From NCBI GenBank assembly GCA_022843805.1, contig JALHMY010000024.1, positions 1 to 64,000 of the forward strand: a stretch of DNA of 64,000 nt, read 5' to 3'. Numbering within the stretch: the stretch's first letter is position 1; each line of letters begins with the position of its first letter. The notes under the pieces are model-generated. The model was not told the origin of the DNA and did not search any database. It was given only the letters and a program-made list of their open reading frames with translations. Source of the DNA: Fuerstiella sp. Its GTDB lineage: Bacteria; Planctomycetota; Planctomycetia; Planctomycetales; Planctomycetaceae. Below, piece by piece: positions 7,931 to 59,834 of the stretch. The position numbers and the translations under genes were made by a program.

Positions 7931-8238
7931 TGGTCGATCACCGATTTCCACTGAGCAGACGGATTTTCTAAGCATTCGTACAGCTGCAGCGGGAATTCCC
8001 GGGGATGGGACCCTCACGAACGGTGCCCGAAATTGACTTTCGAATCGATTGCATGGTCCCGTGAATTGCAAAAACACAGTCATAATCGCAGCCTTGCAAA
8101 TAACTTAGGCTAAGTTTGCTGTGTGGTATTTTGTCAACATTGCCACAAATCCATTTAAAACCGGTACCGGCAGGCCGGGCAAACACAGCATGCCATGCTG
8201 ATGGGGCCTGAAACTTAACCAAGACAGTCAGCGGGCGG

Positions 8239-10019: not shown

Positions 10020-11600
10020 ATGATCGTTCGAACACGCTTTGCTCCCAGTCCCACTGGCTACATGCACATTGGTGGCATGCGAACTGCTCTTTTCAACTGG
10101 CTTTGGGCTCGCCGACATGGCGGCCAGTTCATTCTGCGAATCGATGATACGGATCAGCAAAGAAACAGAGACGAAGCACTGGCGCCAATTCTGAGTGCGT
10201 TTCGATGGCTGGGGCTCAACTGGGATGAAGGCCCGGAAGTGGGAGGTCCCTGCGGACCGTATTTTCAGTCGCAGAGACAGGCCTTTTACGACAAGGCCCT
10301 TCAGCAGCTTCTGGATACTCGGCAGGCTTACCGCGACTTTGAGAATCCGGAAGACACGAAGGCACAGCGGGAAACGGCTGAGAAGGAAAAACGTCAGTAC
10401 ATCAGCAGCCGCTCATCGCTCGAACTGTCAGATGCGGATATCAGTCAGTTTCTGTCTGAAGGCCGTGCTCATGTGATTCGCTTTCTGGTTCCTCGTGACC
10501 AGAAAGTTCAGATTGAAGACCACGTTCGCGGCCATGTGGAATGGGACTGCAGCCTGATGCCTGATCCGGTGATTGCACGAAATGACCGTTCGCCACTGTA
10601 TAACTTTGCGACGGTCGTCGATGATGCCGAATTCCGGATTTCACATGTCATTCGAGCCGAAGAACATCTTCCAAATACTCCGGTACAGGTTCTGCTGCAT
10701 CAGGCACTTGGTAATGAACTTCCTCAATGGGCACATATCCCGTATGTCGCTGCGCCCGGCGGGCGTGAAAAGCTCAGTAAGCGACGAATTGGCCAGTATC
10801 GCACCAACCCGCAGTTTCAAAAACTGTTTGAACTGGGAGACCAGGTGCTGTCGCGTCTGGGAATCGATTCTGCGGCTGATGCGCTGTCACCCGTTATGGT
10901 CGAATATTACCGTCGAGTCGGATTCCTGCCTGAAGGCGTTCTGAACGCTCTGTTTCGGCTGGGCTGGTCGCTGGATGATCATACGGAATACATTTCCCTG
11001 CCCACAGCTCAGCAGAACTTTTCGCTCGACAGAATCATTCGCAGTGCCGCCGGACTGGACGCCGACAAACTTCTGAATTTTCAGTCCCACTGGATGAGCC
11101 AGCTGTCGGCGGAAGAGAAATTGAATGGATGTCTGCCGCTGCTGGCGGAATCAGGGCTGATTGATTCAACCGATGATGCCGACACACGTGATCGTGTGAA
11201 GCAGATTATTGCTCTGGCCGGTGATCGGCTGCGAGTCTTCGGCGATATCTTTCAAATGGACGAGTTCTTTCTTCCGGACGACCAGCTGACTGTTGACGAA
11301 AAGAATTTTCAGAAGCGAATCGTTAAGCCGGAGGCGGCCGTGGATCTGCTGCGAGAACTTCGCAGACGTCTGGAGGCGACGGCAGACTTCTCCGCGGCTG
11401 CATTGCATGAACTGATTCAGGGGTTTGTTACGGAAAAGGGAATTCGTGCGGGCGATCTGTTTCCGGCCATCAGGCTGTGCGTAACAGGTAAGGCACAGGG
11501 GGCTGATTTGTTCGAAACACTTTCTCTTTTGGGACAGTCGCGAGTACTCAGCCGCATGGATCGTGGTATTGGACGAGCAGAATCCCTGCGGGCAGAATGA
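10020..11600 (+). CDS. gltX: Glutamate--tRNA ligase
   Basis: 526 aa; RFAPSPTGYMHIGGMRTALFNWLWAR; RIDDTDQQRN; EKLSKRR. Confidence 0.92.
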   Translation: MIVRTRFAPSPTGYMHIGGMRTALFNWLWARRHGGQFILRIDDTDQQRNRDEALAPILSAFRWLGLNWDEGPEVGGPCGPYFQSQRQAFYDKALQQLLDTRQAYRDFENPEDTKAQRETAEKEKRQYISSRSSLELSDADISQFLSEGRAHVIRFLVPRDQKVQIEDHVRGHVEWDCSLMPDPVIARNDRSPLYNFATVVDDAEFRISHVIRAEEHLPNTPVQVLLHQALGNELPQWAHIPYVAAPGGREKLSKRRIGQYRTNPQFQKLFELGDQVLSRLGIDSAADALSPVMVEYYRRVGFLPEGVLNALFRLGWSLDDHTEYISLPTAQQNFSLDRIIRSAAGLDADKLLNFQSHWMSQLSAEEKLNGCLPLLAESGLIDSTDDADTRDRVKQIIALAGDRLRVFGDIFQMDEFFLPDDQLTVDEKNFQKRIVKPEAAVDLLRELRRRLEATADFSAAALHELIQGFVTEKGIRAGDLFPAIRLCVTGKAQGADLFETLSLLGQSRVLSRMDRGIGRAESLRAE

Positions 11601-11720
11601 ATTCTTCCTGCCGAGTTATCGAGTTATTTGGCTGGTGCGACACTTCCGGCCATGGCAAACACAGATGATTTTTGTAGCGGAAACAGTTCACGTTTATCGA
11701 GGTAGAGGGATGTTGATCCT

Positions 11721-12665
11721 ATGACAACTGTTCTGGTAACGGGCGGTGCAGGTTTTCTTGGCAGTCATCTGTGTGATCGGCTGATCGAACGTGGTGATGA
11801 AGTCATCTGCGTGGATAACTTCTTTACGGGTTCAAAGGCGAACATCCGCCATCTGCTCAGCCATCCTCGCTTTGAGCTGATTCGGCACGATATCGTGCAT
11901 CCGCTGTATGTGGAAGCCGATCGAATCTATAACCTTGCGTGCCCGGCTTCTCCGGAGGCTTACCAGTCCAATCCCATCAAGACCATCAAGACTTCAACAG
12001 TTGGAATGGTCAATATCATGGGGCTGGCGAAACGCTGCAATGCTCGAGTCCTGCATGCGTCCACATCAGAAGTGTATGGAGACCCGCTGGAACATCCTCA
12101 GACAGAAGACTACTGGGGTCATGTGAATCCTATCGGGCCGCGCAGCTGTTACGATGAAGGGAAGCGAATCGCCGAATCTCTGATGATGAATTACCACCTC
12201 GCGCACAGGACGGAGATTCGCATCATCCGTATTTTTAACACCTATGGGCCGCGGATGGCGCCTGATGATGGTCGGGTGATTTCCAACTTTATTACTCAGG
12301 CGCTTCGCGGACAGGATATCACGGTCTATGGCGACGGACAGCAGACACGTTCGTTCTGCTATTGTGATGACCTGATCGACGGCATGATGAAGCTGATGGA
12401 CAACAACGAGCATACCGGGCCGGTGAATATTGGTAATCCTGTCGAAAACACAATGCTGGAACTGGCTCAGGCGGTAATTCGGGCGACCGGCAGCAAGTCC
12501 AGGATTGTGCACAAGCCGCTGCCTCCGGATGATCCCAGAAAGCGGTGCCCCGATATTACTCGTGCCAGAAAATGGCTGGGCTGGGAACCTCGAGTTTCGC
12601 TTGCCGAGGGACTTGATAAGACGATTGCATGGCACGTGCAGACCCAGACGCCTCAGACATCCTGA
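11721..12665 (+). CDS. NAD-dependent epimerase, UDP-glucuronate decarboxylase (UXS)-like
   Basis: 314 aa; [101 protein letters not shown]. Confidence 0.92.
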
Positions 12666-12732
12666 CAAAGAACTACTTCCTCTTCAATTCCCGGTTCCGC
12701 AGCTACAAAAGTTTTTGAAATCGATTCCAGAC

Positions 12733-13776
12733 ATGGCACATATTCTGGTTACCGGCAGCGCTGGCTTTATTGGATACCACACGGCAGCCAAACTGCTGGA
12801 GCGGGGCGATTCAGTCGTCGGTCTGGACAGCATTAATGAGTATTACAATCCTCAGCTGAAACGCGATCGTCTGAAACAGCTGGAGGGACGTGCCGGGTTT
12901 GAATTCGTGCAGATGCATCTGGAAGATCGCAATGCCCTGCAGAAGTTATTTGAACAGCACCGGTTTGACAGTGTCATTCATCTGGCTGCTCAGGCTGGCG
13001 TCCGCTATTCCCTGACCAACCCGAATGCATACGTTGATTCCAACCTTGTTGGTTTTACTTCCATTCTTGAGTGTTGCCGCCATCATCAGATCGGACATCT
13101 GGTCTATGCGTCTTCCAGTTCGGTTTACGGAGCCAACAGGAAAATTCCGTTTAGTGTTGAAGATCGTGTCGACCATCCGCTCAGTCTGTATGCTGCGACG
13201 AAAAAAGCCAACGAGTTAATGGCCCATACGTATAGCCATTTGTTCAGACTCCCAACGACAGGCCTGCGGTTCTTCACTGTGTACGGGCCGTGGGGACGGC
13301 CGGATATGGCTCTGTGGCTGTTTACCGAAGCGATTTTCAAAGGAAAGCCGATCGATGTGTTCAATCATGGACGCATGCAGCGAGACTTTACCTACATCGA
13401 TGACATTACCGAAGGCGTTATTCGAGTGAACGATAACGTTCCGCGATGCAGTGTCGGCGAATCTGATGCGGCGAAGGAGGTGCCGAATCCGGCGAATTCC
13501 GACGCAGACTCCCGGTCGCCCACGTCCGCGCCCTATAGAATTTACAATATTGGCAACAATAAGCCTGTTGAACTCATGCAGATGATTCGGACTCTGGAAT
13601 CCTGTATCGGTCGGAAGGCTGAAATGAGAATGCTGCCGATGCAGCCTGGTGACGTGCCATCAACTTTTGCTGATATCGACGCGCTGCAGCGGGATGTTGG
13701 CTTTCGGCCCGACACGCCAATCGAAACGGGAATCGAACGGTTTGTCTCGTGGTACAAGTCGTATCATGGGGTTTGA
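12733..13776 (+). CDS. NAD-dependent epimerase, UDP-glucuronate 4-epimerase-like
   Basis: In-frame ATG at 12733 within ORF 12505; [85 protein letters not shown]. Confidence 0.9.
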
Positions 13777-36752: not shown

Positions 36753-38222
36753 TTAACTGAGAATGTCACGGATAATATTGCCATGGACATCGGTCAGACG
36801 GAAATCACGACCCTGGAATCGATATGTCAGCTGCTCGTGATTCACTCCGAGCGTGTGCAGGATGGTTGCATTCAGGTCGTGGATATGAACGGGCTTGTCG
36901 ACCACGTTGTAGCTGAAATCGTCCGTTTCGCCGTAGACCTGTCCGGCTTTGATTCCTCCGCCAGCCAGCCACATGGTGAAATTGCGAGGATGATGGTCTC
37001 GTCCATAATTGTCGCGAGTCAGCGTCCCCTGACTGTAAACGGTGCGACCAAATTCACCACCCCAGATGACCAGAGTATCATCCAGCATCCCTCGCTGTTT
37101 CAAATCCTTCACCAGTGCGGCACTTGGACGATCCGCCGCAGGAGCCAGCTGTCGAATAGCGCCGGGAAGGCCGCCGTGATGGTCCCAGCCTCGCAGGAAG
37201 ACCTGAGTAAACGGAACTCCGCGTTCTGCAAGACGTCTGGCCAAAAGACAGTTATAGGCAAAAGTACCCGGTTCCTTCACCTCGGGGCCGTACATATCCA
37301 GAACGCTCTGAGGTTCATCCGAGATGTCAGTCAGGTCCGGAACCGATGTTTGCATCCGAAATGCCATTTCATACTGCGAAATTCGGGAAGCAATTTCCGG
37401 ATCACCCACGGTGTCAAGCCGCTGCTGATTCAGTTCTGACAGACCGTCCAGCATTCGCCGACGTGTCGCTGCATCAACTCCGTTGGGGTTGGACAAATAC
37501 AGCACCGGGTCACCGACAGATCGCAGTGCGACACCAGCATGCCGGGTCGACATAAACCCGCTGCCCCAGAGCCGAGAGAACAGCGCCTGCGACTGAGATC
37601 CGCTGGGCATTCTTGAATGCAAAACGACAAATGCCGGCAGATCTCGATTCGGGCTCCCCAGTCCGTACGATACCCATGCGCCCATACTCGGTCGTCCGGG
37701 AATCTGACTTCCGGTCTGAATGTACGTAATGGCAGGGTCGTGGTTGATTGCTTCCGTGTTGACGGTCTTAACAATGCACAGATCATCCACAATGGAGCCG
37801 ATTTCCGGGAGCAGATCGCTGATCCACGTGCCCTGCTGACCGTGCCGTGAAAATCGAAAGACTGATGGCGCGACAGGCAATCGAGTCTGCCCTGAGGTCA
37901 TCGTTGTAATTCGCTGGCCCTGCCGAATACTCTCCGGAAGATCCTTGTCAAAATACTCGTCCAGCTTCGGCTTGTAGTCATAGAGATCAAGCTGCGATGG
38001 AGCATCCGCCATAAACAGCCAGATCACTCGTTTTGCTGTTGGAGGATGATGCAGTCGACTCAGAAGGGCGTCCTCTGACGACTGTTCCGCACCCGCCGCA
38101 TTGCTGGTCAGCAGGCCGGGATTCATGACAGATGCGAGCGCAGCGGTACCAAGACCAGCAGCACTTCGGCCAAAGAAATATCGCCGAGTTTCCTGAAGTG
38201 CGTGTTGCCTGAAAGCATTCAT
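36753..38222 (-). CDS. DUF1501 domain-containing protein
   Basis: 489 aa; [87 protein letters not shown]. Confidence 0.95.
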
Positions 38223-38247
38223 TTCGATGAATTCCTGTTCCCTTGTA

Positions 38248-41200
38248 CTATTCTCGGGTAATTGTTTCGTCGAGATTCAGCAGGAGGTTGCCCATCATGG
38301 TCATGGTGGCATACTCAACGGCGTCGAGAGTTGCATTTTTGGGCGATGCACCCGTTGCGAGCAGTTTTTCCGCTTCCGGTACACTGGCCTGATAATGTTG
38401 TCGATGACCGTCGCAGACTCGCTGCAGAATCGACTGTTCATGTGGCTCCGGCGATCGTCCGGTACAAAGCCGAAATCCCCAGGCGAGCCGACTGCTGTCA
38501 TTCTCGCCGCCCTCAGTCAGCATCCGTTCCGCAAGTCCGCGGGCCGCTTCCACATACTGTTCATCATTCATCAGCACCAGAGCCTGCAGAGGAGTGTTTG
38601 TCCGAGCACGGCGGGCCACACATGTTTCGCGGGACGGCGCATCGAATGCCATCAGTGAAGGTGGTGGCGATGTTCGTTTCCAGAACGTGTACAGACTTCG
38701 CCGATACAAAGCATCTCCCGCATCCTGCTTGTAGAACTGAGTTGTGCTGCCAACGAAGGCAACCGCTTCCCAAAGGCCGGCAGGCTGATAGGGTTTTACG
38801 CTGCGACCTCCCAGTTGTTCAACCAGCATTCCGCTGATTGCAAGGGCACTGTCGCGCACCACTTCCGCGTCAAGCCGGAATCTCGGACCGCGGGCCAGCA
38901 ACTCGTTTGCAGGATCCGTCTGCAACAACTCGGGACTTACGCGGGAAGACTGTCGATATGTGGCAGAAGTCAGCATCAGTTTATGCAGCTGCTTTATGTT
39001 CCAGCCACTCTCCACAAATTCAACTGCCAGCCAGTCCAGAAGTTCCGGATGAGTGGGCCAGGTTCCCTGGGAACCAAAATCTTCGGCCGTCTTCACAATA
39101 CCGCTGCCGAAAAACTGCTGCCAGAAACGATTGACCGTCACTCGGGAAGTCAGAGGATGCGATGAGTCGGTCAGCCAGCGAGCCAGTCCAAGTCGGTTCT
39201 TTGGTGCGCCGTCAGGAAGTGCCGGAAAAATGGCAGGCACACCTGGCTCAACTTTTTCGCCCGGCTTATTGTACTCGCCTCGCTTCAGTATGAATGTCTC
39301 TCTCGGCTGTGCCAGGTCTTCCATAACCATCGTAACAGGCACGGCGTTATCTGTATCGGTCCGTTGCTTTGTCAGTTCATCCACCTGCTTCTGAAGAGGC
39401 TGAAACGTCAGCCTGATCTGCGGATGCACATTCTGCACAAAGTAATTTCGAATCAGTAGTCTTTGTTCTTCGCTGCGTTTGTCCGTTTCAACTCGAATCG
39501 CATCGCGAACTGGCTGAGGAACGCCCGATTTTTCAAGTGTCTTTTCTGCTGCTTCCCATGCGAGCTGAGATTCAAACGACTGTTCTGCCTGCGGTGTTCG
39601 AGTGCGAATGCCCGCATGATCCCAGTAGACAGTTCCTCCAAACTGAGTGAACGCCCATCCGTTCAGTTCTGAACCTGGCTTCAGGCCGACCGAAGCAGCA
39701 CTGACTTCCAGTCTGACCCATTGGCCGCTCGCGGGCAGATCCCCCAGCCGGCGGTGATTCTCGTTGTCGCCCGAACCCCACTCGATCAGATCTTCACCCC
39801 AGAAGGCCCGATGCTCCCAGCTGCCGTCGTTGAACTGCAGCATAACGGTCCGGGGTGGATTCGCAGGATCGATCCGGCACATGGCGAACAGGACGTCGCC
39901 TTCGCCGATTTTTAAACCTGGAGCGGCTCCTGTGAAGAAATGCTGGCTGAGGCCAGGTGCGGTTCGGCGAGTCGCCTGAGTGCCGGAAAACACAGGGTGC
40001 TCGGGTGCCGTGACAAACTCCCAGGAAGTATCTCCCTGCAGCTGCGCACCAGCAGGTGCGGCATCTTCAATCCAGACAAAATCCTGTGGTTCCGATGCTG
40101 TCACTCCCGGCGGCAAACCTGGATCCGCATATTGTACTTCGGCCAGCGCTGTGGTGATGCGAGCCTGCAGATCAGTAATCTGCTGATTCAATTCCGCCAG
40201 CTTTGTGGTCTGTTCGGGCGAAGGTACCCTGATGACCGGCGGCGGAGCCAGCTGATTTCCATCCATCGCGGCATCTGCGGCCGCATTGTAAAATGCAAAC
40301 AGCTGATAAAACTCTTTCTGAGTCACCGGATCAAATTTGTGATCGTGGCAAACAGCGCAACCGAGAGTCATGCCCATAAAAATTGTGGACATGGTTTCGG
40401 TACGGTCGACGGCGTAACGAACGAACACTTCTTCATTAATGGACCCACCTTCACTTGTCGTCACATTGCAGCGATTAAAGCCGGTGGCAATCTTCTGATC
40501 AATTGTGGAGTCTGGCAGGAGGTCCCCGGCCAGTTGCTCGATGGTAAACTCATTAAAGGGCTTGTTTTGGTTAAATGCGCTGATCACCCATTCACGGTAT
40601 TTCCAGAGTGATCGTTCATTGTCCAGGTGCAGGCCGTGCGAGTCGCCATAGCGAACGAGGTCCAGCCAGTATCGCCCCATGTGCTCACCATATCGGCTGG
40701 ATTCCAGCAAACGGTCGATCAGTCGTTCGTATGCCTGAGGTTCGGAATCGTTAACAAACGCGTCAATCTCCGCCGGCGTTGGGGGTAGTCCGGTCAGATC
40801 AAGAGTTGCCCGCCGAATCAGTGTGACTCGGTCCGCTTCGGGCGAAGCCTTCAGGCCAGCCTTGTCCAGTTTGCCCATTACGAAATGATCGATCGCGTTT
40901 CTGCACCAGTCCGGGTTGCTGACCTGAGGTTGTTCATGCTTCCCGGGACGGATGAATGCCCAGTGGCCCTGGTATTCAGCCCCCTGTTCAATCCACCGTT
41001 TCAGAACATCCACCTGAGCAGAGGTGAGCGTTTTTCCGGTGCTCGCGGGCGGCATCTGGTGGTCGCCGTCCGTGGACGTGACACGACGCAGAAGTTCGCT
41101 CGCCGCAGTATCCCCCGGCACAATTGCGGCGACGCCGGATTCCAGCCTCGCCGTCGCTTCGTCGTGGAGGTCCAGACGCAGGCCTGCCTTGCGTTCCGCA

Positions 41201-41385
41201 GCATCGGGTCCATGGCATTTATAACAGGCGTCCGAAAGGATCGGACGAACCTCGCGGTTATAGTCAACCTTCTCCGCGGACTCCACCACACAACTCAGAG
41301 GCAGAACGAGCCCGGAAAGAGCGTAAAGCCATATTGCAAAAGACTTTCCGCTGAAAAAACAGTGCTTCCAGACGAGCGATCGCAT
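38248..41385 (-). CDS. PSD1 and planctomycete cytochrome C domain-containing protein (DUF1549/DUF1553)
   Basis: 1045 aa; [111 protein letters not shown]. Confidence 0.95.
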
Positions 41386-45885: not shown

Positions 45886-45947
45886 GTTGAGTGCTGATCC
45901 TGCCGGAGCCATTCCGGAAGTTTAAGAATTCTTCGGAGTGTCTGCTC

Positions 45948-48900
45948 ATGCATCACCTGCACAATATGATCCGTTCAACTCTGCTTTGCAGTATTCTGGT
46001 GCCGTTCTGGGTGTCGGCCGCTGTGGGGGATGACGGTTCTGCAGGACTTGCCCGGCTGGAAAGATCGAATCCATGGTATCCCAGCCTGAATCTTCCTGCA
46101 CTGACAACTCCGAAGTGGATTGCAGAAGACGGCGTTGAGGCGGTCGTGGTGCTGGCGATCGATGATATGCGCGATCCCGCAAAGTATGAGCAGTATCTTC
46201 GACCCATTCTGAATCGACTGAAGCAGATTGATGGCCGAGCGCCCGTCAGCATCATGACGTGTCAGGTCCGGCCGGACGATCCTCAGCTGCAGAGCTGGCT
46301 GAGCGAAGGGTTAAGCATCGAATGCCATACCGCTGACCATCCGTGCCCGCTGCTCCAGGGTGGAGATTTCGCGAAAGCGAAATCAACGTATGAACGCTGC
46401 GTTGAGCTGATGAACCAGATTCCGGGCAACCGGCCGGTGGCATTCCGCATGCCCTGCTGCGATTCCCTGAATACTGTCAGTCCCCGGTTCTACTCAGAGA
46501 TCTTTAATCGCACGACGGACAAACAGAATTTTCTGGAGATTGATTCATCGGTTTTTAACTTTTTCACATCGGATGATAAGTCGATCCCCAAAGAACTGGT
46601 CCTGGATGCGAACGGCAACGAACGATTCCTGAAGTACATGCCCAAAGCAAACAAGTATGGAGGAAATGTTCATAATCACTTTGTCAACTTTATTCGCAAC
46701 TATCCCTATCCTTACGTAATCAATAATTCCTGCTGGCAATTTCCGTGTGTTGCTCCCAGTGACTGGTCGGCTCAGCATCTGCATGGTGTGAACAATCCTC
46801 TCACGGTTGAAGACTGGAAAGCCGCAATCGATATCACCGTCCATAAGCAGGGTGTCTTCAATCTGGTCTTTCACCCGCACGGCTGGATCAAAGCCGAACA
46901 GGTGGTAGAGATGATTGACCATGCCGTATCGAAGCACGGGACGAAAGTGAAGTTTCTGACATTCAGGGAAGCGGCCGAACGACTGCAAAAGAGTCTGCAG
47001 AACGGAAAGGCCCTGCGAGACAGTTCAAAAGATGTTCAGGACAATTTGAGTCACATTCCGTTTCGTCAGGCCCATCATCAGGAGAATGACCTTAACGCAC
47101 TTTCGCCGGAACTGCGGGAAATCGTGTCGACCGGACGATCCGAAAAGCTGCTGCCGATACTGCGACCCGATGGAACAAGTAACGGACTCTTCATTCATGA
47201 CCAGCATTTCTGCTGGCAAAATGAAGACACAGCCGGGCTTCCTGATCTGATCCATCGTGTGTCATTTGAAGAAGTGCTGTCGGAAAAACGTCGTGCAGAG
47301 GATCGCAGTGATATTCCGGCCGTGCCGATTGGTGCAGCGGTCGTTGATATCACTCCGTCTGTTCCCCTGCGGCTTACCGGATACGGGGCTCGCAAACAGG
47401 AATCCGAAGGTGTGGCGGAAAAGATCCATGCACGAGCCCTTGTGTTTGGCGGTGATGGCATCCCTGGCAATGACGGACAGCAAAGCGTTCTGGTGACGGT
47501 CGATAACTGTGGAGTGGCGGCCGAGATTACGGAAACGGTATTCGCGAAACTTGCCGAGAAGCACAAACTCGTTCGTGAGCGTTTTGTCATCTGTTCCACT
47601 CACACGCATTCGGCTCCTGCACTGCGGGGATTTGCTCCCAATATCCTTTCTGATGTGACAGCGGATCAGGCCGCGCGTCTGAACCAGTACGAAACGGAAC
47701 TGACTGGCAAACTGGTGGAGGTGGTCGATCAGGCAATTGCCGCTCAGCGTCCGGGATATCTTTCCACCGGATATGGTGAAGCCGGGTTTGCCATGAACCG
47801 CCGCAATGTGGTCGACGGCAAATGGGTGGGATTCGGGGCTGTCGCGGATGGCCCCGTCGACAAGCGAGTCCCTGTTCTGGCGGCACACGATGAGGAGGGT
47901 CGGCTGATCGCCGTGCTGGCAAACTACGCATGCCACTGTACGACCGAACCGGGCTCTTTCAATCAGGTGAGCGGTGACTGGGCGGGCTGTGCTGCCGACT
48001 TTCTTGAAGCCGATCATCCAGGTGCAGTCGCTCTGATTGCCATCGGATGCGGGGCAGACGCTGACCCGTCTCCCCGGGGGACGCACGAGCTGGCAAGGCA
48101 GAATGGTCGCACGATTGCGGATGAAGTAAATCGACTGCTGGCGACCTCTGCAAACAATGCCGGCCCATTGTCAGAAACACCGGGAAATCGAATGCAGGCC
48201 GATTTGAAACGGATCCATCCGAATTTGTTGTGCCGGATAGACCGAATCGATCTTCCTCTGAGTCCGCTTCCACCCCGTGAGGAACTTGAGCGGCGAGCTG
48301 CTCAGAAGGATGTGACCGGCACACATGCTCAGCGGTTGCTGAAATTGCTGGACGACGGACAGACCGTACCGACTACCATTCCCGGGTACCCGGTCCAGAT
48401 CTGGTGTTTTGGTGACGATCTTGCAATGGTTTTTCTGGGCGGCGAAGTGGTCGTTGATTATTCGATCCGCCTGAATCAGATGTTTGATGATTCACGATTG
48501 TGGATTAACGCTTACAGCAATGATGTGCCATGCTACATCGCATCAAAACGATTACTGCGGGAAGGTGGCTACGAAGTCGATTCATCCATGGTTTATTATG
48601 GGCGTCCCGGCCGCCTGGCTCCCGAAGCTGAGGATCTGATTTGTGATACTGTGCAGCGACTGATGCCGCATGAGTTCTATTCAAAGATGCTGCAGACGGA
48701 TTTTCCAGGCCCGCTGTCGCCGGAGGATGCTCTGGCATCAATGAAGACCAGGCCCGATCTGAAGGTGGAGCTGGTCGCATCGGAACCCCTGATCCACGAT
48801 CCGGTGGCATTTGACTGGGATGTCAATGGCCGACTTTGGGTTGTCGAAATGGGAGATTATCCTCGCGGAATCGAACCGAACTCCGGGAAAACGGGGGGAC

Positions 48901-51900
48901 GAGTGCAGGTGCTGGAGGATACCGACAGCGACGGTCGATACGACAAAGCCACCACATTTCTGTCGGGAATCCCTTTCCCGAACGGCATTTGCTTCTGGCG
49001 CAACGGAGTCATCATCACTTCTGCTCCGGATGTGATCTATGCAGAAGATACAAACGGCGACCTGCAGGCGGACCTGCGAAAAACTCTTTACACGGGCTTC
49101 ACTGAGGGCAACCAGCAGCATCGAGTCAACGGACTCCGCTGGGGGCTCGATGGATGGCTCTATCTGGCCAATGGAGACAGTGGAGGAGAAATCCGGGCTG
49201 TTGCAACTGTCGACGGCATTGCAGTTTCCGGTGCGGATGCTGCGTCCGGCAGCTCGTCATCCGGTGTAAACATACGGGGGCGGGATGTTCGAATTCAGCC
49301 GGACCTCGGGCTCGTCGAGGCGGTTAGTGGGCAAACTCAGTTTGGCCGCGAACGCGATGATTTCGGAAACTGGTTTGGTAACAATAACTCCAATCCCATC
49401 TGGCAATATGTACTGGAAGACGCATATCTGAAACGTAATCCTCATGCAGCCGCACCGACGGTGCGGGGTGAAGTGGCCGAGATTCCGGGAGCAGCTCCGG
49501 TTTTTCCAGTCAGCCGCACTCTGGCACGATTCAACGATTTCGGTTCGGCCAATCGTTTTACCTCCGCCTGCAGTACGATGATCTATCGAGACATTCGACT
49601 GGGCCAGCAATATTACGGGAATGCTCTGACAAGCGAACCGGTTCACAATCTGGTCTCCCGACTGGTGCTGAATCGCACTGGCATTACATACCGTGGACGC
49701 CGAGCGGAAGATGAACAGGCATCGGAGCTGCTGGCGTCCGGCGACAACTGGTTTCGGCCAACAATGCTGCGAACCGGTCCCGACGGTGCCTTGTATCTGG
49801 CGGATATGTACCGGCAGGTCATTGAACATCCCGAATGGATTCCACCGGAATATCAGCGCCGAATGGATCTGCAGGCGGGCTGCGATCGTGGTCGCATTTA
49901 TCGGCTGGTACCCGTTCAGGATTGCTGCACTCCTGCTTCCGAGTCGCTGTCCCCATCGGACAGCAAGGCACCGGCACCATCTCCCAAACCGGACACCGGG
50001 GATCTGAGAGCATGGTTTGCACAAAAGTGGGATCAGATTCCGACCGAGCATCTGGTGACTCGTCTGAGCAGTCCCAATGGCTGGTGGCGGGATACGGCAC
50101 ATCGTATTTTGCTGCACCGCCAAAATACAACCGCGATGGAGACTCTGACGAATCTCGCAAAAGATCACTCTTCGCCTGCTGTTCGACTTCAGTCCCTCGC
50201 TGTGCTTCAGCATCTGAACGACGATCAAAGTGAACTCAGCAAGATTCTGACGGACGCACTTGTCGATGCGTCGGCTGAGGTTCGCTGTCATGCCATTCGA
50301 CTGCTTGAACCGTATATGCGGAATCCAGCCGCTCGACTTCCTGAGCAGCTGACAGGTCTGGCTGGTGATCCGGATGATTCGGTTGTTCTGCAGCTGGCTT
50401 CATCGCTTGGAGAATCAAAGTCTCCGGAAGCGGCTATACTACTGGCGAAGATACTCAGAAGACAGCCTGAGAACGGCTGGATCACGTCTGCAGTCTTCAG
50501 TTCGCTGAATGCCGGGAACGTTGCCGACGTTCTGCATGCATGGAATGCGGCCGAGCAGGAGGAAAACGCAGCCCCCGGGAACAGCCGGAAGACAGATCAG
50601 TCGATGGCAGTTTTCGGTCGACTCATTGGACAAGCCGCCGCTCTGCAGCAGCCAGACGCGGTTCGCCGACCATTTGTCGCAATGCTGACGTCGCTGAATA
50701 CGGACAATGGCCGAATGAATTCGGCTACGTGGCAGGCGACTCTGGAAGTGATTCGAAATCTCAAACGCTACCGTGACATGGAGACGGCAATTCGCAAATC
50801 GGCGGATGTGGCATCTGCCTGGGAAAGTGCGGCCGAGCACGCGATGACGATTGCCCTCGACTCAGATGCTGACAATGAACTTCGGTCTGTGTGTGCGAGA
50901 TTCGTGCTTTCAGATGGTTCGGTGACACACGAGCAGGTAATTCGGCTGCTCGATCTGCTGCAGCCTTCCACTGCGATTGAAGTGCAGCAGGTCATTGTCG
51001 AGGCTGCCGGGACAACGGGTGACAGTCAGACTGCCATTCAACTGATACAACGATGGAAAGGCGTGGGACCGGCCGTGCGCAGCGGAATTCTTGATCTGCT
51101 GCTGGCAAAGAACTCATGGACGGAAATCCTTCTCTCATCACTGAAAGACGGTGCACTCGCCGTCTCTGACATTGATGCGATTCATCGGGATCGCCTGCTG
51201 ACTCATCGGAACGAATCCATTCGTCAACAGGCTGAACAACTGCTGTCAGCTGGCAGCAGCACCAGTCGAACGGCCGTTGTCGACGAATGGAAAAATAAAA
51301 TCACGGGTATGACCGGGAATTCGGCTGCAGGAAAAGGCGTTTTCGAAAAACGATGTTCCGCATGCCACCGGCTGCAGGGGATTGGAAAGTCCATCGGAGC
51401 AGATCTGGAAGCACTGAAGGACCGTTCTACGGACGCTCTGCTGACCGCGATTCTGGACCCGAATCGCGCGGTCGAAACAAAATTCCTCAGTTATACGGCT
51501 GCGTTGACGAACGGACTGACGATCAGCGGAATGCTGCTGAATGAGACGGGAAACAGTGTCACCCTGATCTCCAGCGACGGAAAGGAACATGCTGTGGCCC
51601 GAGCTGACCTCGAAGAACTGACTGGCACCAGTCGTTCACTGATGCCCGAAGGGCTTGAAAAGGATCTTTCTCCGCAGGAACTCACCGACGTCATGTCTTA
51701 TGTGCAGCAGCACAGCATTCCATGGAAGCAGGCTGAAGGCAATAACCCTGTGCTTGTCCAGGCAGATGACAATGGCGTGATCACGCTGCCTGCCTCGGCC
51801 GCACAGATCTATGGCCCGCAGCTGACATATGAAAAACAGTATGAGAATCTCGGGTGGTGGGCAACCGCTGAAGACTATGCCGTATGGACCTTCGAATCAA

Positions 51901-52169
51901 AGCGTTCCGGGCATTATACTGTCGAGTTCGAATATGCATGCGATGACAGCACGGCAGGCAATTTGATTCGCCTCTCCACCGGTACCCGGTTGCTCAGTGC
52001 ACGAGTGCCGGGCACTGGCAACTGGGAGACTTACCGCCGCTGGACGGCTGGTACGCTGGATGTTCATGGAGGAAAAGGGAGACTGATTGTCACAGCCGCC
52101 GAAAAGCCATCAGCGTGGCTTATCGATCTTCGCGTGATTCGACTGATTCCACCGGGAAATGGCAAATAA
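45948..52169 (+). CDS. Giant secreted multidomain protein: deacetylase-like, neutral ceramidase-like, PVC-type dehydrogenase, HEAT-like repeats, c-type cytochrome, C-terminal beta-sandwich-like domain
   Basis: Single open frame 45891-52169; likely ATG 45948. VVVLAIDDMRDP; GAAVVDITPSVPLRLTGYGARKQ and ICSTHTHSAPAL; VELVASEPLIHDPVAFDWDVNGRLWVVEMGDYPRG; KRCSACHRLQGIGKSIGADL (CxxCH at 51354-51368). Confidence 0.9.
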   Translation: MHHLHNMIRSTLLCSILVPFWVSAAVGDDGSAGLARLERSNPWYPSLNLPALTTPKWIAEDGVEAVVVLAIDDMRDPAKYEQYLRPILNRLKQIDGRAPVSIMTCQVRPDDPQLQSWLSEGLSIECHTADHPCPLLQGGDFAKAKSTYERCVELMNQIPGNRPVAFRMPCCDSLNTVSPRFYSEIFNRTTDKQNFLEIDSSVFNFFTSDDKSIPKELVLDANGNERFLKYMPKANKYGGNVHNHFVNFIRNYPYPYVINNSCWQFPCVAPSDWSAQHLHGVNNPLTVEDWKAAIDITVHKQGVFNLVFHPHGWIKAEQVVEMIDHAVSKHGTKVKFLTFREAAERLQKSLQNGKALRDSSKDVQDNLSHIPFRQAHHQENDLNALSPELREIVSTGRSEKLLPILRPDGTSNGLFIHDQHFCWQNEDTAGLPDLIHRVSFEEVLSEKRRAEDRSDIPAVPIGAAVVDITPSVPLRLTGYGARKQESEGVAEKIHARALVFGGDGIPGNDGQQSVLVTVDNCGVAAEITETVFAKLAEKHKLVRERFVICSTHTHSAPALRGFAPNILSDVTADQAARLNQYETELTGKLVEVVDQAIAAQRPGYLSTGYGEAGFAMNRRNVVDGKWVGFGAVADGPVDKRVPVLAAHDEEGRLIAVLANYACHCTTEPGSFNQVSGDWAGCAADFLEADHPGAVALIAIGCGADADPSPRGTHELARQNGRTIADEVNRLLATSANNAGPLSETPGNRMQADLKRIHPNLLCRIDRIDLPLSPLPPREELERRAAQKDVTGTHAQRLLKLLDDGQTVPTTIPGYPVQIWCFGDDLAMVFLGGEVVVDYSIRLNQMFDDSRLWINAYSNDVPCYIASKRLLREGGYEVDSSMVYYGRPGRLAPEAEDLICDTVQRLMPHEFYSKMLQTDFPGPLSPEDALASMKTRPDLKVELVASEPLIHDPVAFDWDVNGRLWVVEMGDYPRGIEPNSGKTGGRVQVLEDTDSDGRYDKATTFLSGIPFPNGICFWRNGVIITSAPDVIYAEDTNGDLQADLRKTLYTGFTEGNQQHRVNGLRWGLDGWLYLANGDSGGEIRAVATVDGIAVSGADAASGSSSSGVNIRGRDVRIQPDLGLVEAVSGQTQFGRERDDFGNWFGNNNSNPIWQYVLEDAYLKRNPHAAAPTVRGEVAEIPGAAPVFPVSRTLARFNDFGSANRFTSACSTMIYRDIRLGQQYYGNALTSEPVHNLVSRLVLNRTGITYRGRRAEDEQASELLASGDNWFRPTMLRTGPDGALYLADMYRQVIEHPEWIPPEYQRRMDLQAGCDRGRIYRLVPVQDCCTPASESLSPSDSKAPAPSPKPDTGDLRAWFAQKWDQIPTEHLVTRLSSPNGWWRDTAHRILLHRQNTTAMETLTNLAKDHSSPAVRLQSLAVLQHLNDDQSELSKILTDALVDASAEVRCHAIRLLEPYMRNPAARLPEQLTGLAGDPDDSVVLQLASSLGESKSPEAAILLAKILRRQPENGWITSAVFSSLNAGNVADVLHAWNAAEQEENAAPGNSRKTDQSMAVFGRLIGQAAALQQPDAVRRPFVAMLTSLNTDNGRMNSATWQATLEVIRNLKRYRDMETAIRKSADVASAWESAAEHAMTIALDSDADNELRSVCARFVLSDGSVTHEQVIRLLDLLQPSTAIEVQQVIVEAAGTTGDSQTAIQLIQRWKGVGPAVRSGILDLLLAKNSWTEILLSSLKDGALAVSDIDAIHRDRLLTHRNESIRQQAEQLLSAGSSTSRTAVVDEWKNKITGMTGNSAAGKGVFEKRCSACHRLQGIGKSIGADLEALKDRSTDALLTAILDPNRAVETKFLSYTAALTNGLTISGMLLNETGNSVTLISSDGKEHAVARADLEELTGTSRSLMPEGLEKDLSPQELTDVMSYVQQHSIPWKQAEGNNPVLVQADDNGVITLPASAAQIYGPQLTYEKQYENLGWWATAEDYAVWTFESKRSGHYTVEFEYACDDSTAGNLIRLSTGTRLLSARVPGTGNWETYRRWTAGTLDVHGGKGRLIVTAAEKPSAWLIDLRVIRLIPPGNGK

Positions 52170-52618: not shown

Positions 52619-54583
52619 ATGTCCCTGCGGAGTCAAATCGCGATTATCCTTGCCTGCCTGTCGCTCCTGCAGGCCGGGGCAACGTGGGCTGTTCATTTCT
52701 TTGTGACGATGCCCGCTTTTCTGGGAATTGAACGCGAGTTTGCTCAGCGAAATATGGGGCAATGTCTGGACGCTATCGAAGGAGAACTGGCCAACTTGTC
52801 AAAGCTGGCCAACGACTGGGGAGCATGGGACGACCCTTACCAGTTCGTTGTCGATCGAAATGAGGAGTTTCGGCGAAAGAATCTGATGGAGGAAACGTTC
52901 GTCAATACAAGCACCAATCTGTTGTGCTTTTTAAATAACGATCGCGAAATCGTCTGGAGCGACTGTCGCGATATTCAGACGCTTGAGCAAGTTAAAGTTG
53001 ATGATGTTTACGAGCTGATTCGGCGTGAAAATGGCCCGCTGACATCTCACCGTCATGCGGATGATTCGAGGCAGGGACTCATTGTCACGGCCCGGGGACC
53101 AATGCTTATTGTTTCGCGTCCGATCATTCCAACTCGTCGCGAAGGCTCCATTCGCGGGTCAGTGGTCATGGGCCGTTTTCTGAGTGCCGAGCAGACCCGG
53201 ATTCTGGCTCGTCGCCTGCATATGGACCTGTCCATAACGGAAACTGGCAGAACCGGAGTTCCCGAATCGTTACCAGTCAGTCAGTTGCTGCTGAACAAGT
53301 CCGTTCTGCTTGAGAACGTCAGTGCCAGCCTGATGACTGCATCGGCAGTTCTGCCGGATATGTTTGGACACGCAGCAATTCTGGTGCAGCTGACACTGCC
53401 TCGAAAGATCACCGCACTGGGAAGTTCCGCAGCATGGGCGTCAAAAATCTGTGGATTGTTCTGCACGATTCTGACAATGCTGGGAATCGCCGCATGCCTG
53501 CATTTCCGCATTCTGCAGCCACTGCAGGCGCTGTCTGCACATGCAGCAAGAATTGGCCACAATGACGACCTTAAGGCACGACTCAACCTGCGGCGTCGCG
53601 ACGAAATTGGATCGCTGGCTGACCGATTCGACCAGATGGTAGAAAACCTGGCCGTTTCCCGATCGAAGCTGCTCGAGGCCGTGCATCGAGCCGGTATGGC
53701 GGAAAGCGTTTCGGAACTGCTTCACAACGTCGGAAATGCAGTCAACTCTGCAGGATGCTCAACCGAGCTTCTCGAAGAACGACTCAGCTCATCCCGAATT
53801 TCAGGTCTTGGCAGGGCAACAGCCATGTTGCAGGAGCAGAAACCGCAGGCGGCTGACTTCTTCTCTGCTGACGCTCGCGGCATGCAACTTATTGACTATC
53901 TCATCGGCCTTAATGAAAAGCTGCAGGAGGAACATGTCAGTAACCTGAACGAGGTAACGAGGCTGCATGAAACCATCCGTCACATTCGATCGGCGATTGC
54001 TGAACGGAGAACTTTTGCTGCCGGAGCCGAATTCCGTCAGGAGACAGAACTGAAATCCCTGCTGAAGGAAGTCATTCGTCTCAGTGAGCCCGAACTGAAC
54101 ACAGTCGCCGTTCAGGTACGTCTTATTGTACCGCCACTCCCTCACCTGAATCTGAACACAACACGCATGACCCAGATTCTGATGAATCTGGTGAAGAATG
54201 CCGTGCAGGCTATGAACAGCACACCTGTGGGGCAAAGAGTACTGACAATCGCCGCCCGGTTTCTTCCGCCCCATGGTATAGAGATAGACGTGGCTGACAC
54301 CGGCTGCGGAATCTCGCCGGAAGTTCACGAGAAACTTTTCCGGCATGGCTTCACGACACGGAGCGACGGACACGGTCTGGGACTGCACTACTGCGCCAAC
54401 GCCATCCGGGAAGCCGGTGGTGACATCTCCGTTTTCAGCGGAGGACTGCATGGTGAAACAACGTTTCGAATTCAGCTTCCGAATGTTTTTCCGGAAAGCA
54501 TAGCGGTTGGCGATTATGAGGACGATACGGCGCAGCCTTCTGCCGGGTTTCGCATCAGAGAACATCCAGCTCTTTGTTCATAA
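52619..54583 (+). CDS. Membrane sensor histidine kinase with CHASE4-like periplasmic domain and HAMP
   Basis: N-terminal TM; LANDWGAWDDPYQFV (CHASE4-like); HAMP-like ILQPLQALSAHAARIGHNDDLKARLNLRRRDEIGSLADRFDQM; HATPase motifs ILMNLVKNAVQAM, VADTGCGIS, GHGLGLHYCANAIREAGG. Confidence 0.92.
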   Translation: MSLRSQIAIILACLSLLQAGATWAVHFFVTMPAFLGIEREFAQRNMGQCLDAIEGELANLSKLANDWGAWDDPYQFVVDRNEEFRRKNLMEETFVNTSTNLLCFLNNDREIVWSDCRDIQTLEQVKVDDVYELIRRENGPLTSHRHADDSRQGLIVTARGPMLIVSRPIIPTRREGSIRGSVVMGRFLSAEQTRILARRLHMDLSITETGRTGVPESLPVSQLLLNKSVLLENVSASLMTASAVLPDMFGHAAILVQLTLPRKITALGSSAAWASKICGLFCTILTMLGIAACLHFRILQPLQALSAHAARIGHNDDLKARLNLRRRDEIGSLADRFDQMVENLAVSRSKLLEAVHRAGMAESVSELLHNVGNAVNSAGCSTELLEERLSSSRISGLGRATAMLQEQKPQAADFFSADARGMQLIDYLIGLNEKLQEEHVSNLNEVTRLHETIRHIRSAIAERRTFAAGAEFRQETELKSLLKEVIRLSEPELNTVAVQVRLIVPPLPHLNLNTTRMTQILMNLVKNAVQAMNSTPVGQRVLTIAARFLPPHGIEIDVADTGCGISPEVHEKLFRHGFTTRSDGHGLGLHYCANAIREAGGDISVFSGGLHGETTFRIQLPNVFPESIAVGDYEDDTAQPSAGFRIREHPALCS

Positions 54584-54645
54584 CAAGTTTCGGAATCGAA
54601 AAAACAGTCATTAACTGAGACAAGAGCCTCTGCGGGAGTTACGCC

Positions 54646-56499
54646 ATGAATCCTTTATCAGGCGAGCAACATCGAATCCTGATTGTAGACGATAATCCGT
54701 CCATTCATCAGGACATTCGCAGCCTGTTGCAGTTCAGGGACTGCACTTCCCTGGACGAATACGAGTCCGAGCTGTTCGGTGTTACCGGCCAGGGTGTCCC
54801 GGCATGCCTGAACGCGGATCGCTTTGAGGTGCAGTCGGCCTTTCAGGGACAGCAGGCCCTTCAGATGCTGCGAGATGCCATCAGTGAAGGCCGACCTTAC
54901 AGTATGGCCGTTGTCGATATCCGAATGCCGCCCGGATGGGACGGCCTTGAAACCATTCAATATCTCTGGGCTGCGGATCCGGACCTGGAAGTTGTGATCT
55001 GTACTGCGTTCTCAGACTACTCGTGGCGACATATCGTCTCCTGCCTCGGGCAGTCTGATCGATTTCTGATTTTGCGAAAGCCTTTCGAAAGTATCGAACT
55101 GCGTCAGCTGGTCCTGACGCTCACAACTAAAGTGAGCATGAGAAAACGTCAGGCCGAACATCTGCAGACGATGGAAAGAACGCTCGCGGAACGCTCCGAG
55201 GCTCGTGATGCGGCAGAAAAGGCAAACCGTGTTAAAAGCGAATTTCTGGCCAACATGAGCCATGAAATTCGTACGCCACTGAATGGAGTTATTGGCATGC
55301 TTCAGCTGCTGCAGGAAACTCGGCTGAATGAGGCACAGAAACGCTATGTGGGTGTGGCCGCCTCATCCGCCGACTATCTGATGAGTCTTCTGAATGGTGT
55401 TCTGGACTTTTCGAAAGTCGAAGAAGGTCAGCTGGAGCTGGAGGATGCAGATTTCTCGCTGACTAACCTGCTGCATGAAGTTGTCGAGATGCAGGCGGGC
55501 AGCGCGAAGCTGCGGGGCCTCGAAATCTGCTGCGAATTGTCTGCCAGCCTTCCGCAGACTGTTCGCGGGGACCGGTCCCGGCTGCAACAGATTCTGCTGA
55601 ATCTTATATCGAATGCAGTTAAGTTTACAGATCATGGTTACGTGACACTGGCTGCGATACCGCAGGAGACCAGCGACCAGTTTCATCACATCCGGTTTGA
55701 GATTCGGGATACCGGCATTGGAATTCCGCATGACCGTCGGCATCGTCTTTTCCGAATGTTTTCCCAGGTTGATGCATCCACGACTCGCCGCTTTGGAGGA
55801 ACAGGACTGGGACTCGCGTTGTGCAAACGGCTTGTCGAGCTCTTTGGCGGAGAAATTGGGGTGGAGAGCGAGCCTGAACACGGATCCACATTCTGGTTTA
55901 CGGTTCAGCTGAAACGACCGCTGTCTGCTGAATCAGGAATGGATTCAGATACTTCGGAAGGTGTTTCAGATTCCCGCCCGCCGCTGGAAGCAAAGGGCGA
56001 TCTTCGAGTACTGATTGTTGACGACCATGAAGTCAATCAGACTGTCATTCGTGAATTTCTGAAACAGTTCGGATATCAGTGTGAGATTGCTGAGGATGGT
56101 CAGAAAGCCGTCGAAAAGGCAGAGTCCCGAATGTTTGACGCTGTTCTGATGGACTGTCAGATGCCCGTGATGAACGGCCTGCAGGCAACAGCATCCATCC
56201 GAAGATCTGAAGCGGAGCAAAGTGGACTCAGTCGTACCGGGCGCAAGCTGCCGATCATTGCGCTGACTGCCAGCGCGACACAGCAGGACTTTGCTGCGTG
56301 TATGGCGGCTGGAATGGATGGGTATCTCACCAAACCGGTGAACTATGCGAACCTGCTGGAAGAGCTGGGGAAATGCACGTCCGGTGGTTCAGACTTGCCG
56401 CCCGCACCTTCACCGTCATCAGGCAAATTCAGCAATGGCCGAAACGGCGGAAATCGCGCTGTCGATTTCTTCGAAAGTGTTCCAGTATCCAGGGCTTAG
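54646..56499 (+). CDS. Hybrid histidine kinase: REC - HisKA - HATPase_c - REC
   Basis: 617 aa; [14 protein letters not shown]...[80 protein letters not shown]...[11 protein letters not shown]. Confidence 0.96.
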
Positions 56500-57665: not shown

Positions 57666-59834
57666 TTACTGCTGGCCAGGCAACCAGAGGCTGCCTCCCC
57701 CGCCCTGCTCTGCTTCACTTTGTGGAGTCCACAGACCACCGGAATTCTGAGCACCAATTGATACGGGCAACTCCAGCTCCTGCAGAAGGTGTTCGCAATG
57801 AGAATCCATCAGCTGCCCCTGAATAACCTCACCGATCTCCGGCAGCTTCCCGATGTATCGGTCGCGAATTCGATGCAATAATACGATCAGTTCAGGATCG
57901 GTCGGATCATCCAGCCGCATCGCCAGCTCGCGGATTTCGATCTCAAGCAGCTCACGGAAGCTTTCGCGGCTTACCGATGCCGTTTTTCTCGCAGTCTGCA
58001 TACAGGAGGTGATGGTGTCCGGATCGCTTTCCGTTCGGGCGATGGATGCTCGCATCAGGCAGGCACGAACGACGCCAAACTGCTCCAGTGCAGCCTGGCG
58101 TCGAAGCAGTTCGTCCAGCCCTTTCTTTGCCAGGTCCGCAAATCCCAGCATTGATACTCGATTGCAGTACTCAATCAGATGCTGATCGTTCAGCTGAATA
58201 CAGTCCAGCCGCTGGAGGAAATAACAGGGGAACGCTGCACAGTGCTGACCATCCGAAAGCGAAGTCGGGGCGGGGTCGGCGATCTGCAGCTTCCGGCGGA
58301 GCAATGAAACATCAAACGGTCGTTCATAGTAGCGAGCATTAACCGAAAGTGTGAGAACGGCAGCCGCGAGTACCACCTTCATGGATGGATCCTTTGCCGC
58401 ATCAGCAGGAGTTTTTCCGCCGAGCGACAACAGTGGTCTGTTCATCCAGCGACTGGCAAGCTCGTCATTCCATCCACGGACGATTTTTCGATACTGGCTC
58501 TTCGTCACATCGTCAGGACAATAGAGTCTGCAATCAAACTCTCTCGCATCTCTGGGATGCAAAATCGCAACGGATGGCTGCTGTTTGTCGTCCGAAACCG
58601 GCAGCAGCAGATCCCCGCAAACTCTTCGAAGTTCAGCGAGCACGGCTTCGGCCTGATCCTCAACTACCACAACCCGCAGTATCGGTGTACTGATGTTGTT
58701 CGCAGCGGCAGCGGCCTCGTCAATAATATCCAGGAGTTCAACGTCAGCGATTACTTCGGAGAGTTGCGAAACATCCGTGATCGCGTCGGCGGGACTGGGA
58801 CGATTCAGCAGGTCAAACATGGCAACAATGTCCATGCCCGGCGGCAGGGTCGACTTCTCAGCGTCCTCCAGATCCTCATCTCCGTAGCGGATCAGCGCCT
58901 CCATGTCTTCAACAACGGTCAGCAACTCCGAGCCTGACCTGACGGGCAACCGATACTCGTACAGCGCATAACTTCGTTCAGGAAGTTTCTGATCGAGCAA
59001 CTGTGCAAGCGATTCCGCTTCCGCTGCTGTATCAGGATCCGTGAGTAAGGTGGCCGCTTTATGCAAAGCCGCGGCTGCATCGGCAGATCGCCCATCCCAT
59101 GCTCGACAGAGACCCAGGTTGTGCCAAATGGCACCATTCTGAGCATTTGTTTCGCTGAGCCTGGAATAGATAATGGCGGCCGGTTCCCAGCAGCCAATCA
59201 AACTCAGCTTTCTCGCTCGAAGATCCTGCTGCATTGTTTCATCACTGCCGGAAACTGGCAGCAGCGAATGCGGAGTTCTCAGGACAACCGGTACAATGTT
59301 GTCTGCTTCCAGCATCGCCAGGTTCATCAAATACTGGCGTCCCTGTTCAGGTCCCGCCAGCCGGGCAGACAGAGCAAGATGCTCACGACCTCCCATGTAT
59401 TCCAGGTCCGAAATCATGTTCAGACCGATCAGATGGGCCAGCTGTGCCATTTCCAGCGGCATCGTCCGGGAACTGATCTGAAATGTTCGATGTATCAGAC
59501 GTCGCGAAGCCTCAAAGCCGTCTAACGTCAACGCAAGACGAGACAGCCACATTAGCCCTCGGGGATGGTCAGGATGCTGTTTGAGAAAAGCTGTCAGAAT
59601 TTCGCGACATTCCTCGTCCCGGTTCATTTGTCGCAGAAGATCGCACAATTCTGCAACCAGCACTTCACGGTTGGGGAATTTCACCAGCAGGTCTCGTAAC
59701 TGCTTTTCCGCAGCTTCCGGCTGATTCTCCTGCAGGCGACTGATGCGCTGCAGATCCGGCAGAATATCGCTGCAGCAAAATTTCAGCTTCTTCCCGCTTC
59801 CACAGGGGCAATTTGAATACGGATTGTTGCTCAT
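57666..59834 (-). CDS. SEC-C motif/tetratricopeptide-like repeat protein
   Basis: 722 aa; N-terminal NPYSNCPCGSGKKLKFCC (SEC-C zinc motif); TPR-like helical repeats. Confidence 0.85.
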   Translation of the reverse strand: MSNNPYSNCPCGSGKKLKFCCSDILPDLQRISRLQENQPEAAEKQLRDLLVKFPNREVLVAELCDLLRQMNRDEECREILTAFLKQHPDHPRGLMWLSRLALTLDGFEASRRLIHRTFQISSRTMPLEMAQLAHLIGLNMISDLEYMGGREHLALSARLAGPEQGRQYLMNLAMLEADNIVPVVLRTPHSLLPVSGSDETMQQDLRARKLSLIGCWEPAAIIYSRLSETNAQNGAIWHNLGLCRAWDGRSADAAAALHKAATLLTDPDTAAEAESLAQLLDQKLPERSYALYEYRLPVRSGSELLTVVEDMEALIRYGDEDLEDAEKSTLPPGMDIVAMFDLLNRPSPADAITDVSQLSEVIADVELLDIIDEAAAAANNISTPILRVVVVEDQAEAVLAELRRVCGDLLLPVSDDKQQPSVAILHPRDAREFDCRLYCPDDVTKSQYRKIVRGWNDELASRWMNRPLLSLGGKTPADAAKDPSMKVVLAAAVLTLSVNARYYERPFDVSLLRRKLQIADPAPTSLSDGQHCAAFPCYFLQRLDCIQLNDQHLIEYCNRVSMLGFADLAKKGLDELLRRQAALEQFGVVRACLMRASIARTESDPDTITSCMQTARKTASVSRESFRELLEIEIRELAMRLDDPTDPELIVLLHRIRDRYIGKLPEIGEVIQGQLMDSHCEHLLQELELPVSIGAQNSGGLWTPQSEAEQGGGGSLWLPGQQ

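Follow-up and report, generated by a model that had tools for sequence, protein, structure and literature searches.

We analysed a 64,000-nucleotide (nt) stretch of Fuerstiella sp. DNA (GCA_022843805.1, contig JALHMY010000024.1, positions 1 to 64,000; hereafter the window) and find that a gene at 45948-52169 on its + strand almost certainly encodes one multi-domain chain of 2073 amino acids (aa). Its modules run in the order signal peptide, NodB/CE4 deacetylase, neutral-ceramidase-like Zn domain, PVC-type dehydrogenase, HEAT repeats, c-type cytochrome and CBM6/35-like end and, judged from the sequence, each belongs to a known family. Besides the window, 17 genomes (18 in total) carry the complete chain in an uninterrupted frame of 2049-2467 aa with the domain order kept, and we conclude from these full-length orthologs that the fusion is genuine, old and conserved. 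The ortholog set comprised long family members and the results of a scan of a genome collection.

The open reading frame (ORF) starts with ATG and its translation contains no stop; an alternative GTG at 45891 would extend it to 2092 aa in the same frame to 52169. We prefer the shorter version because a Shine-Dalgarno-like GGAG (45935-45938, +) sits 9 nt upstream of the ATG. A sequence-only reading had proposed a fusion of five or more modules and about 2,070-2,090 aa in a single frame, and Pfam and NCBIfam domains were indeed found in the order it gave, its motifs and coordinates agreeing with the ORF translation and the profile searches. The modules it listed stand; however, it overlooked an FG-GAP relic and left a C-terminal beta-sandwich-like region unassigned, for which we find a CBM6/35 fold.

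Domain composition of the chain

Domains were called by Pfam and NCBIfam profile searches, with scores judged against curated cut-offs, and AlphaFold2 was run on two halves, residues 28-908 and 916-2073 (mean predicted local distance difference test scores of 81 and 83). In Foldseek searches, these models resembled ceramidase, CE4, Kustd1711 and CBM35 structures. All features of the protein given below lie on the + strand. Residues 1-27 (45948-46028; MHHLHNMIRSTLLCSILVPFWVSAAVG) were recognized by eye as a predicted Sec-type signal peptide, in agreement with the invariant Cys residues and the periplasmic heme domain, and the chain is therefore probably exported or secreted.

The signal peptide is followed by a NodB/CE4-type polysaccharide deacetylase (residues 28-360, 46029-47027), supported by Pfam, invariant residues and Foldseek. 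Polysacc_deac_1 (PF01522) matches residues 64-173 by a narrow margin, with 26.3 bits against a cut-off of 23.1. D72, D73, H127, H131, R167 and H309 are invariant in 25/25 aligned sequences, so that the Asp-His-His metal triad (D73, H127, H131) and the motif-5 His (H309) appear intact. The model of residues 28-908 matches CE4 deacetylases (E 1e-5), and, of the structures solved so far, PdaC, a peptidoglycan deacetylase, gives the domain its top sequence match (E 5e-4). The fold and triad are shared with PdaC (6h8l) and chitin deacetylase (5znt), but at ~13% identity in structural alignment the window domain falls into a separate, long, Cys-rich subfamily.

In relatives, the stretch between the deacetylase and the next domain is, where long, an FG-GAP/VCBS propeller of 240-350 aa (Pfam FG-GAP_3 matches in L145, L075 and L142), compared with a 100-aa linker in the window (residues 361-460, 47028-47327). 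Within this linker, residues ~397-450 (LPILRPDGTSNGLFIHDQHFCWQNEDTAGLPDLIHRVSFEEVL) align solely with the end of the relatives' propeller, which marks them as its putative relic. When propellers were classed as full or reduced by a 180-aa length cut-off, their presence or shrinkage changed 11 times on the tree, indicating that the propeller was repeatedly lost or reduced and is dispensable. A related deacetylase-FG-GAP-dehydrogenase chain (L047/L089, G015:C717) is split within the dehydrogenase into overlapping ORFs of 877 and 993 aa, either by a frameshift or by a sequencing error.

The neutral-ceramidase-like Zn hydrolase domain (residues 461-908, 47328-48671) was identified by Pfam, by profile and fold matches to PDB 2zws and by invariant ligands. 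Ceramidase_alk (PF04734) scores 71.4 bits over residues 461-691 (cut-off 32.1) and matches the first half of the domain only. The match to 2zws has E values of 1e-19 by profile and 1e-20 by fold (Foldseek, AlphaFold2 model). In Pseudomonas neutral ceramidase the Zn ligands are H97, H204, E411 and Y448; the equivalents here are H552, H663, E833 and Y863, which are invariant wherever the region is present, the 2zws alignment over E411 and Y448 being index-exact at a score below significance. Both His residues of the THTHS motif are also invariant. Thus the fold and the four Zn ligands resemble those of the neutral ceramidases of P. aeruginosa (2zws) and human (4wgk).

The PVC-type dehydrogenase propeller (residues 916-1325, 48693-49922) is matched by DUF7133 over residues 924-1322 (E 2e-154, Pfam) and by TIGR02604 (285 bits, cut-off 122, NCBIfam). 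In the ortholog alignment, 108 of its positions are at least 96% conserved, among them H1058, which lies in QHRVNGLRWGLDGWLY and fits the GSDH catalytic-His motif (N/Q)H...GxDGxLY (compared with NHNGGTIAFGPDGYLY). A Pfam search of the 2073-aa protein gave no match to GSDH itself (PF07995), and the dehydrogenase fold gave no match of its own in Foldseek, where the search with residues 916-2073 was swamped by HEAT solenoids.

The matches of this C-terminal half were to HEAT solenoids, Kustd1711 and CBM35. Residues 1366-1780 (50043-51287) form an alpha solenoid in the AlphaFold2 model and match HEAT_2 with 48.8 bits (cut-off 27.7, Pfam). The solenoid leads into a c-type cytochrome domain with inserted 'nose' strands (residues 1786-1922, 51303-51713), in which TIGR02603 covers residues 1790-1921 with 110 bits (cut-off 68, NCBIfam). 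Its CSACH heme attachment motif (C1803, C1806 and H1807) is found in the translation exactly where the sequence-only reading had placed it (51354-51368), and these residues are conserved together with a distal Met1899 (codon 51642-51644), pointing to a His/Met heme. Kustd1711 of Kuenenia matches the domain by profile (E 1e-19) and by fold. This protein of anammox bacteria is a free diheme electron carrier, a His/Met, Ca-tuned cytochrome of about +350 mV (PMC11791136); the fold and His/Met heme are alike, whereas the window has a single heme domain inside a large enzyme. A link to LPMO/X183 (LPMO, lytic polysaccharide monooxygenase), prompted by the diheme protein match, was dropped, as the matched protein is Kustd1711. 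Ccm-type cytochrome c assembly genes are present in the window genome.

The C-terminal CBM6/CBM35-like beta sandwich (residues 1932-2071, 51741-52160) stays under the Pfam gathering score for CBM_6 (residues 1966-2062, 15.1 vs 28.9 bits). The ortholog L040 reaches 22.6 bits (E 1e-4) with the same profile, and CBM35 structures are matched by fold (2w1w, TMt 0.71, E 6e-4, Foldseek) and by profile (2vzp, E 7.5e-4).

Distribution and selection

One full-length ortholog stands in a single contig of 8,920,478 bases, again from the genus Fuerstiella (G065), in one open frame; five further full-chain candidates are truncated by contig ends. The fusion gene is mostly single copy per genome. The window genome has the full chain once and ~70 partial matches elsewhere, including a ceramidase-like-dehydrogenase protein of 1887 aa. 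In the family of the window organism, 82 of the 171 genomes have the deacetylase. A deacetylase-dehydrogenase-cytochrome chain also occurs in a metagenome-assembled genome (MAG) labelled Verrucomicrobia (L160), through either transfer or mis-binning. The sequence-only reading had allowed for modules that are always separate genes elsewhere and are joined here by a frameshift; the full-length orthologs show otherwise.

The junction regions can be aligned across orthologs, and purifying selection acts on every module. The ratio of nonsynonymous to synonymous substitution rates was 0.03-0.17 for the deacetylase, ceramidase-like, dehydrogenase, cytochrome and CBM modules, 0.14-0.32 for HEAT and 0.12-0.20 for the linker, by a simple Nei-Gojobori estimate from four ortholog pairs, in three of which synonymous sites are partly near saturation.

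Evolutionary assembly

Two shorter architectures are common in relatives. Architecture A is ceramidase-like-dehydrogenase-HEAT-cytochrome(-CBM), 1393-1989 aa, and architecture B is deacetylase-[FG-GAP propeller]-dehydrogenase-HEAT-cytochrome-CBM, about 1600-1960 aa, complete in 37 among 80 loci. A is widespread and shares the window's modules from the ceramidase-like domain onward, but has no deacetylase and forms its own clades in the dehydrogenase and ceramidase-like trees. B, common in Planctomycetota, has the identical backbone but no ceramidase-like module, with a full or reduced FG-GAP propeller in between.

In a tree of the deacetylase, dehydrogenase and cytochrome, 17 of the ceramidase-bearing chains cluster with a few module-free forms, and L145 is placed elsewhere. 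A single clade of all 18 was rejected by the approximately unbiased test (p 5e-6); without L145 it was not (p 0.2). The ceramidase-like domain of L145, a single MAG, nests in an architecture-A lineage, and its dehydrogenase groups with architecture B; these were quick trees with support from the Shimodaira-Hasegawa-like approximate likelihood ratio test (SH-aLRT) only. Because one origin is rejected and the L145 domains group apart, the trees indicate that the ceramidase-like cassette was inserted ahead of the dehydrogenase in an older B chain at least twice. L012 has the ceramidase-like module and no deacetylase, yet it lies inside the main clade, which suggests secondary loss.

The halves of the chain also occur as separate genes. 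In one MAG (L142), a gene at 7575-9617 encodes deacetylase-FG-GAP and its downstream neighbour on that strand, at 10387-13521, encodes dehydrogenase-HEAT-cytochrome; in another (L151) the two halves lie ~4 kb apart on opposite strands; this adjacency supports a functional link. Around the remaining stand-alone deacetylase-FG-GAP genes there was no dehydrogenase nearby. That one module was convergently inserted at one and the same junction, and that the halves are encoded side by side elsewhere, argues that the combination is functional.

Proposed mechanism and alternatives

We hypothesize, with even confidence for and against, that the protein is a secreted oxidoreductase that also deacylates its substrate, an acylated glycan. 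The CBM would hold an acylated, probably N-acylated, glycan, from which the deacetylase and the ceramidase-like Zn hydrolase would strip acyl or amide substituents. Oxidation would follow deacylation: the propeller, with a His base as in soluble aldose dehydrogenases, would oxidize the exposed sugar, and electrons would pass to the heme and on into the respiratory chain, while the HEAT solenoid would hold the sites together. More tentatively, and with less confidence than we give the mechanism itself, two Zn deacylases that are unrelated to each other and a sugar oxidase wired to a heme could work in sequence on one bound glycan, as a new class of deacylating oxidoreductase built more than once from the same cassette ahead of the same propeller.

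Coupling of deacylation to oxidation, on a complex glycan or lipid, had been suggested by the sequence-only reading, and we infer such coupling for the glycan, which is favoured by the conserved catalytic ligands, the purifying selection, the CBM-like end and the adjacent split halves in L142. Several results weigh against parts of this proposal. At the position of the ceramidase nucleophile, Ser274 in the Pseudomonas enzyme, a motif-based alignment of the orthologs shows no conserved Ser: the stretch reads GCGADxxPxP, with N/D at position 706 and S/T/A/E at 708. Known ceramidase chemistry is therefore unlikely. Unlike 2zws and 4wgk, the domain reaches only 38 bits against the 1200-bit threshold of the neutral ceramidase equivalog NF041649, leaving membership of the PF04734 superfamily only, and for these two reasons the lipid part is unsupported. 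In a profile-profile comparison (hhalign), the dehydrogenase matched GSDH over the last blade only (probability 13%). Profile searches for the pyrroloquinoline quinone (PQQ) synthesis genes gave neither PqqC nor an above-cut-off PqqE in the window genome (G000); of the 40 genomes searched, 39 likewise lacked both and one had them, so that the oxidation step has no known cofactor supply; the cofactor might be imported or different, or the propeller might not be an oxidase. Nor did the ortholog neighbourhoods contain conserved genes pointing to a substrate. PVC propeller proteins and GSDH-like proteins occur by the dozen in the window genome and its relatives despite the near-absence of PqqC and PqqE.

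The strongest alternative, which we consider unlikely though a serious contender, takes up this last option: the propeller could be a binding or structural element, with only the deacylases catalytic and the heme serving another role, such as sensing or taking electrons from a partner enzyme. The missing PQQ genes and the weak GSDH profile match would fit this, but the GSDH-like motif keeps H1058 along with many more invariant polar residues, other PVC propellers in these genomes do match GSDH (e.g., G000:C49, E 9e-7), and a c-type heme is constantly linked in the same chain. Somewhat less probable still is that the protein remodels acylated surface glycans of the cell that makes it, in the envelope or the extracellular matrix, and not food polysaccharide. 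A mostly single-copy gene that stands alone, outside any degradation operon, would suit such a role, as would the closeness of the CE4 domain to PdaC. However, the CBM6/35-like end suits an exogenous polysaccharide and, at the L151 locus only, the two halves are separated by a regulator gene and by an ORF that weakly matches acetyl-xylan esterase and glucuronyl esterase. We regard it as improbable that either hydrolase module, or both, has lost its catalytic activity and serves only for binding: the nucleophile position and the half-length ceramidase profile match could be read in this way, but the four Zn ligands, both THTHS His residues, the deacetylase triad and its motif-5 His are all invariant. 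Finally, an assembly or frameshift artefact fusing two or three genes has a vanishingly small chance of being correct, since, although the window genome is a draft of 172 contigs, the same module order stands in one frame in 17 other genomes (including single-contig G065), orthologs align over the junctions and every module is under purifying selection.

Genomic neighbourhood

Directly downstream of the fusion gene on the same strand (52619-56499, +), the window encodes two histidine kinases, one a CHASE4-HAMP-HATPase protein and the other a hybrid kinase that carries receiver domains. In one sub-clade only (L091, L092, L096 and L135), a conserved N,N-dimethylformamidase-like gene of 514-538 aa lies just downstream of the fusion; its DMFA2_C match was tested in L092. 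Elsewhere in the window are a DUF1501 gene beside a PSCyt1-PSCyt2-PSD1 gene (36753-41385, -), a classic planctomycete pair that in L148 also comes after a stand-alone deacetylase-FG-GAP gene, and a TPR protein of 722 aa with an Xre_MbcA_ParS_C match near threshold (57666-59834, -).

Relation to known systems and implications

The backbone is that of PVC-type heme-binding CxxCH proteins (TIGR02604, TIGR02603 and DUF7133), which likewise combine propeller, HEAT and a c-type heme at the end of a single chain, and both TIGR cut-offs are far exceeded. Many of those proteins have frames of 1000-1200 aa, whereas the window adds two hydrolases ahead and a CBM6/35-like domain behind. Fungal AA12 pyranose dehydrogenase, which combines a cytochrome b, a PQQ propeller and a CBM1, follows a similar logic, in which a single chain unites a propeller oxidase with a heme outlet and with carbohydrate binding; this is an analogy only, as the heme domain is unrelated and AA12 has no deacylases. 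In the titles and abstract beginnings of the open-access papers searched, we found nothing recognizable on this architecture, and none of these papers joined 'neutral ceramidase' with Planctomycetes; within that coverage, neither the full chain nor the convergent way it was assembled appears to have been described.

The absence of PQQ genes puts in question what cofactor PVC propellers use. Planctomycetota are rich in PVC propeller-HEAT-cytochrome proteins of unassigned substrate, as the part-chain matches in the window genome alone illustrate. Two deacylases hard-wired to such a propeller would point directly to acylated sugars as the hypothetical substrates of the entire class, and the genus Fuerstiella has been cultured.

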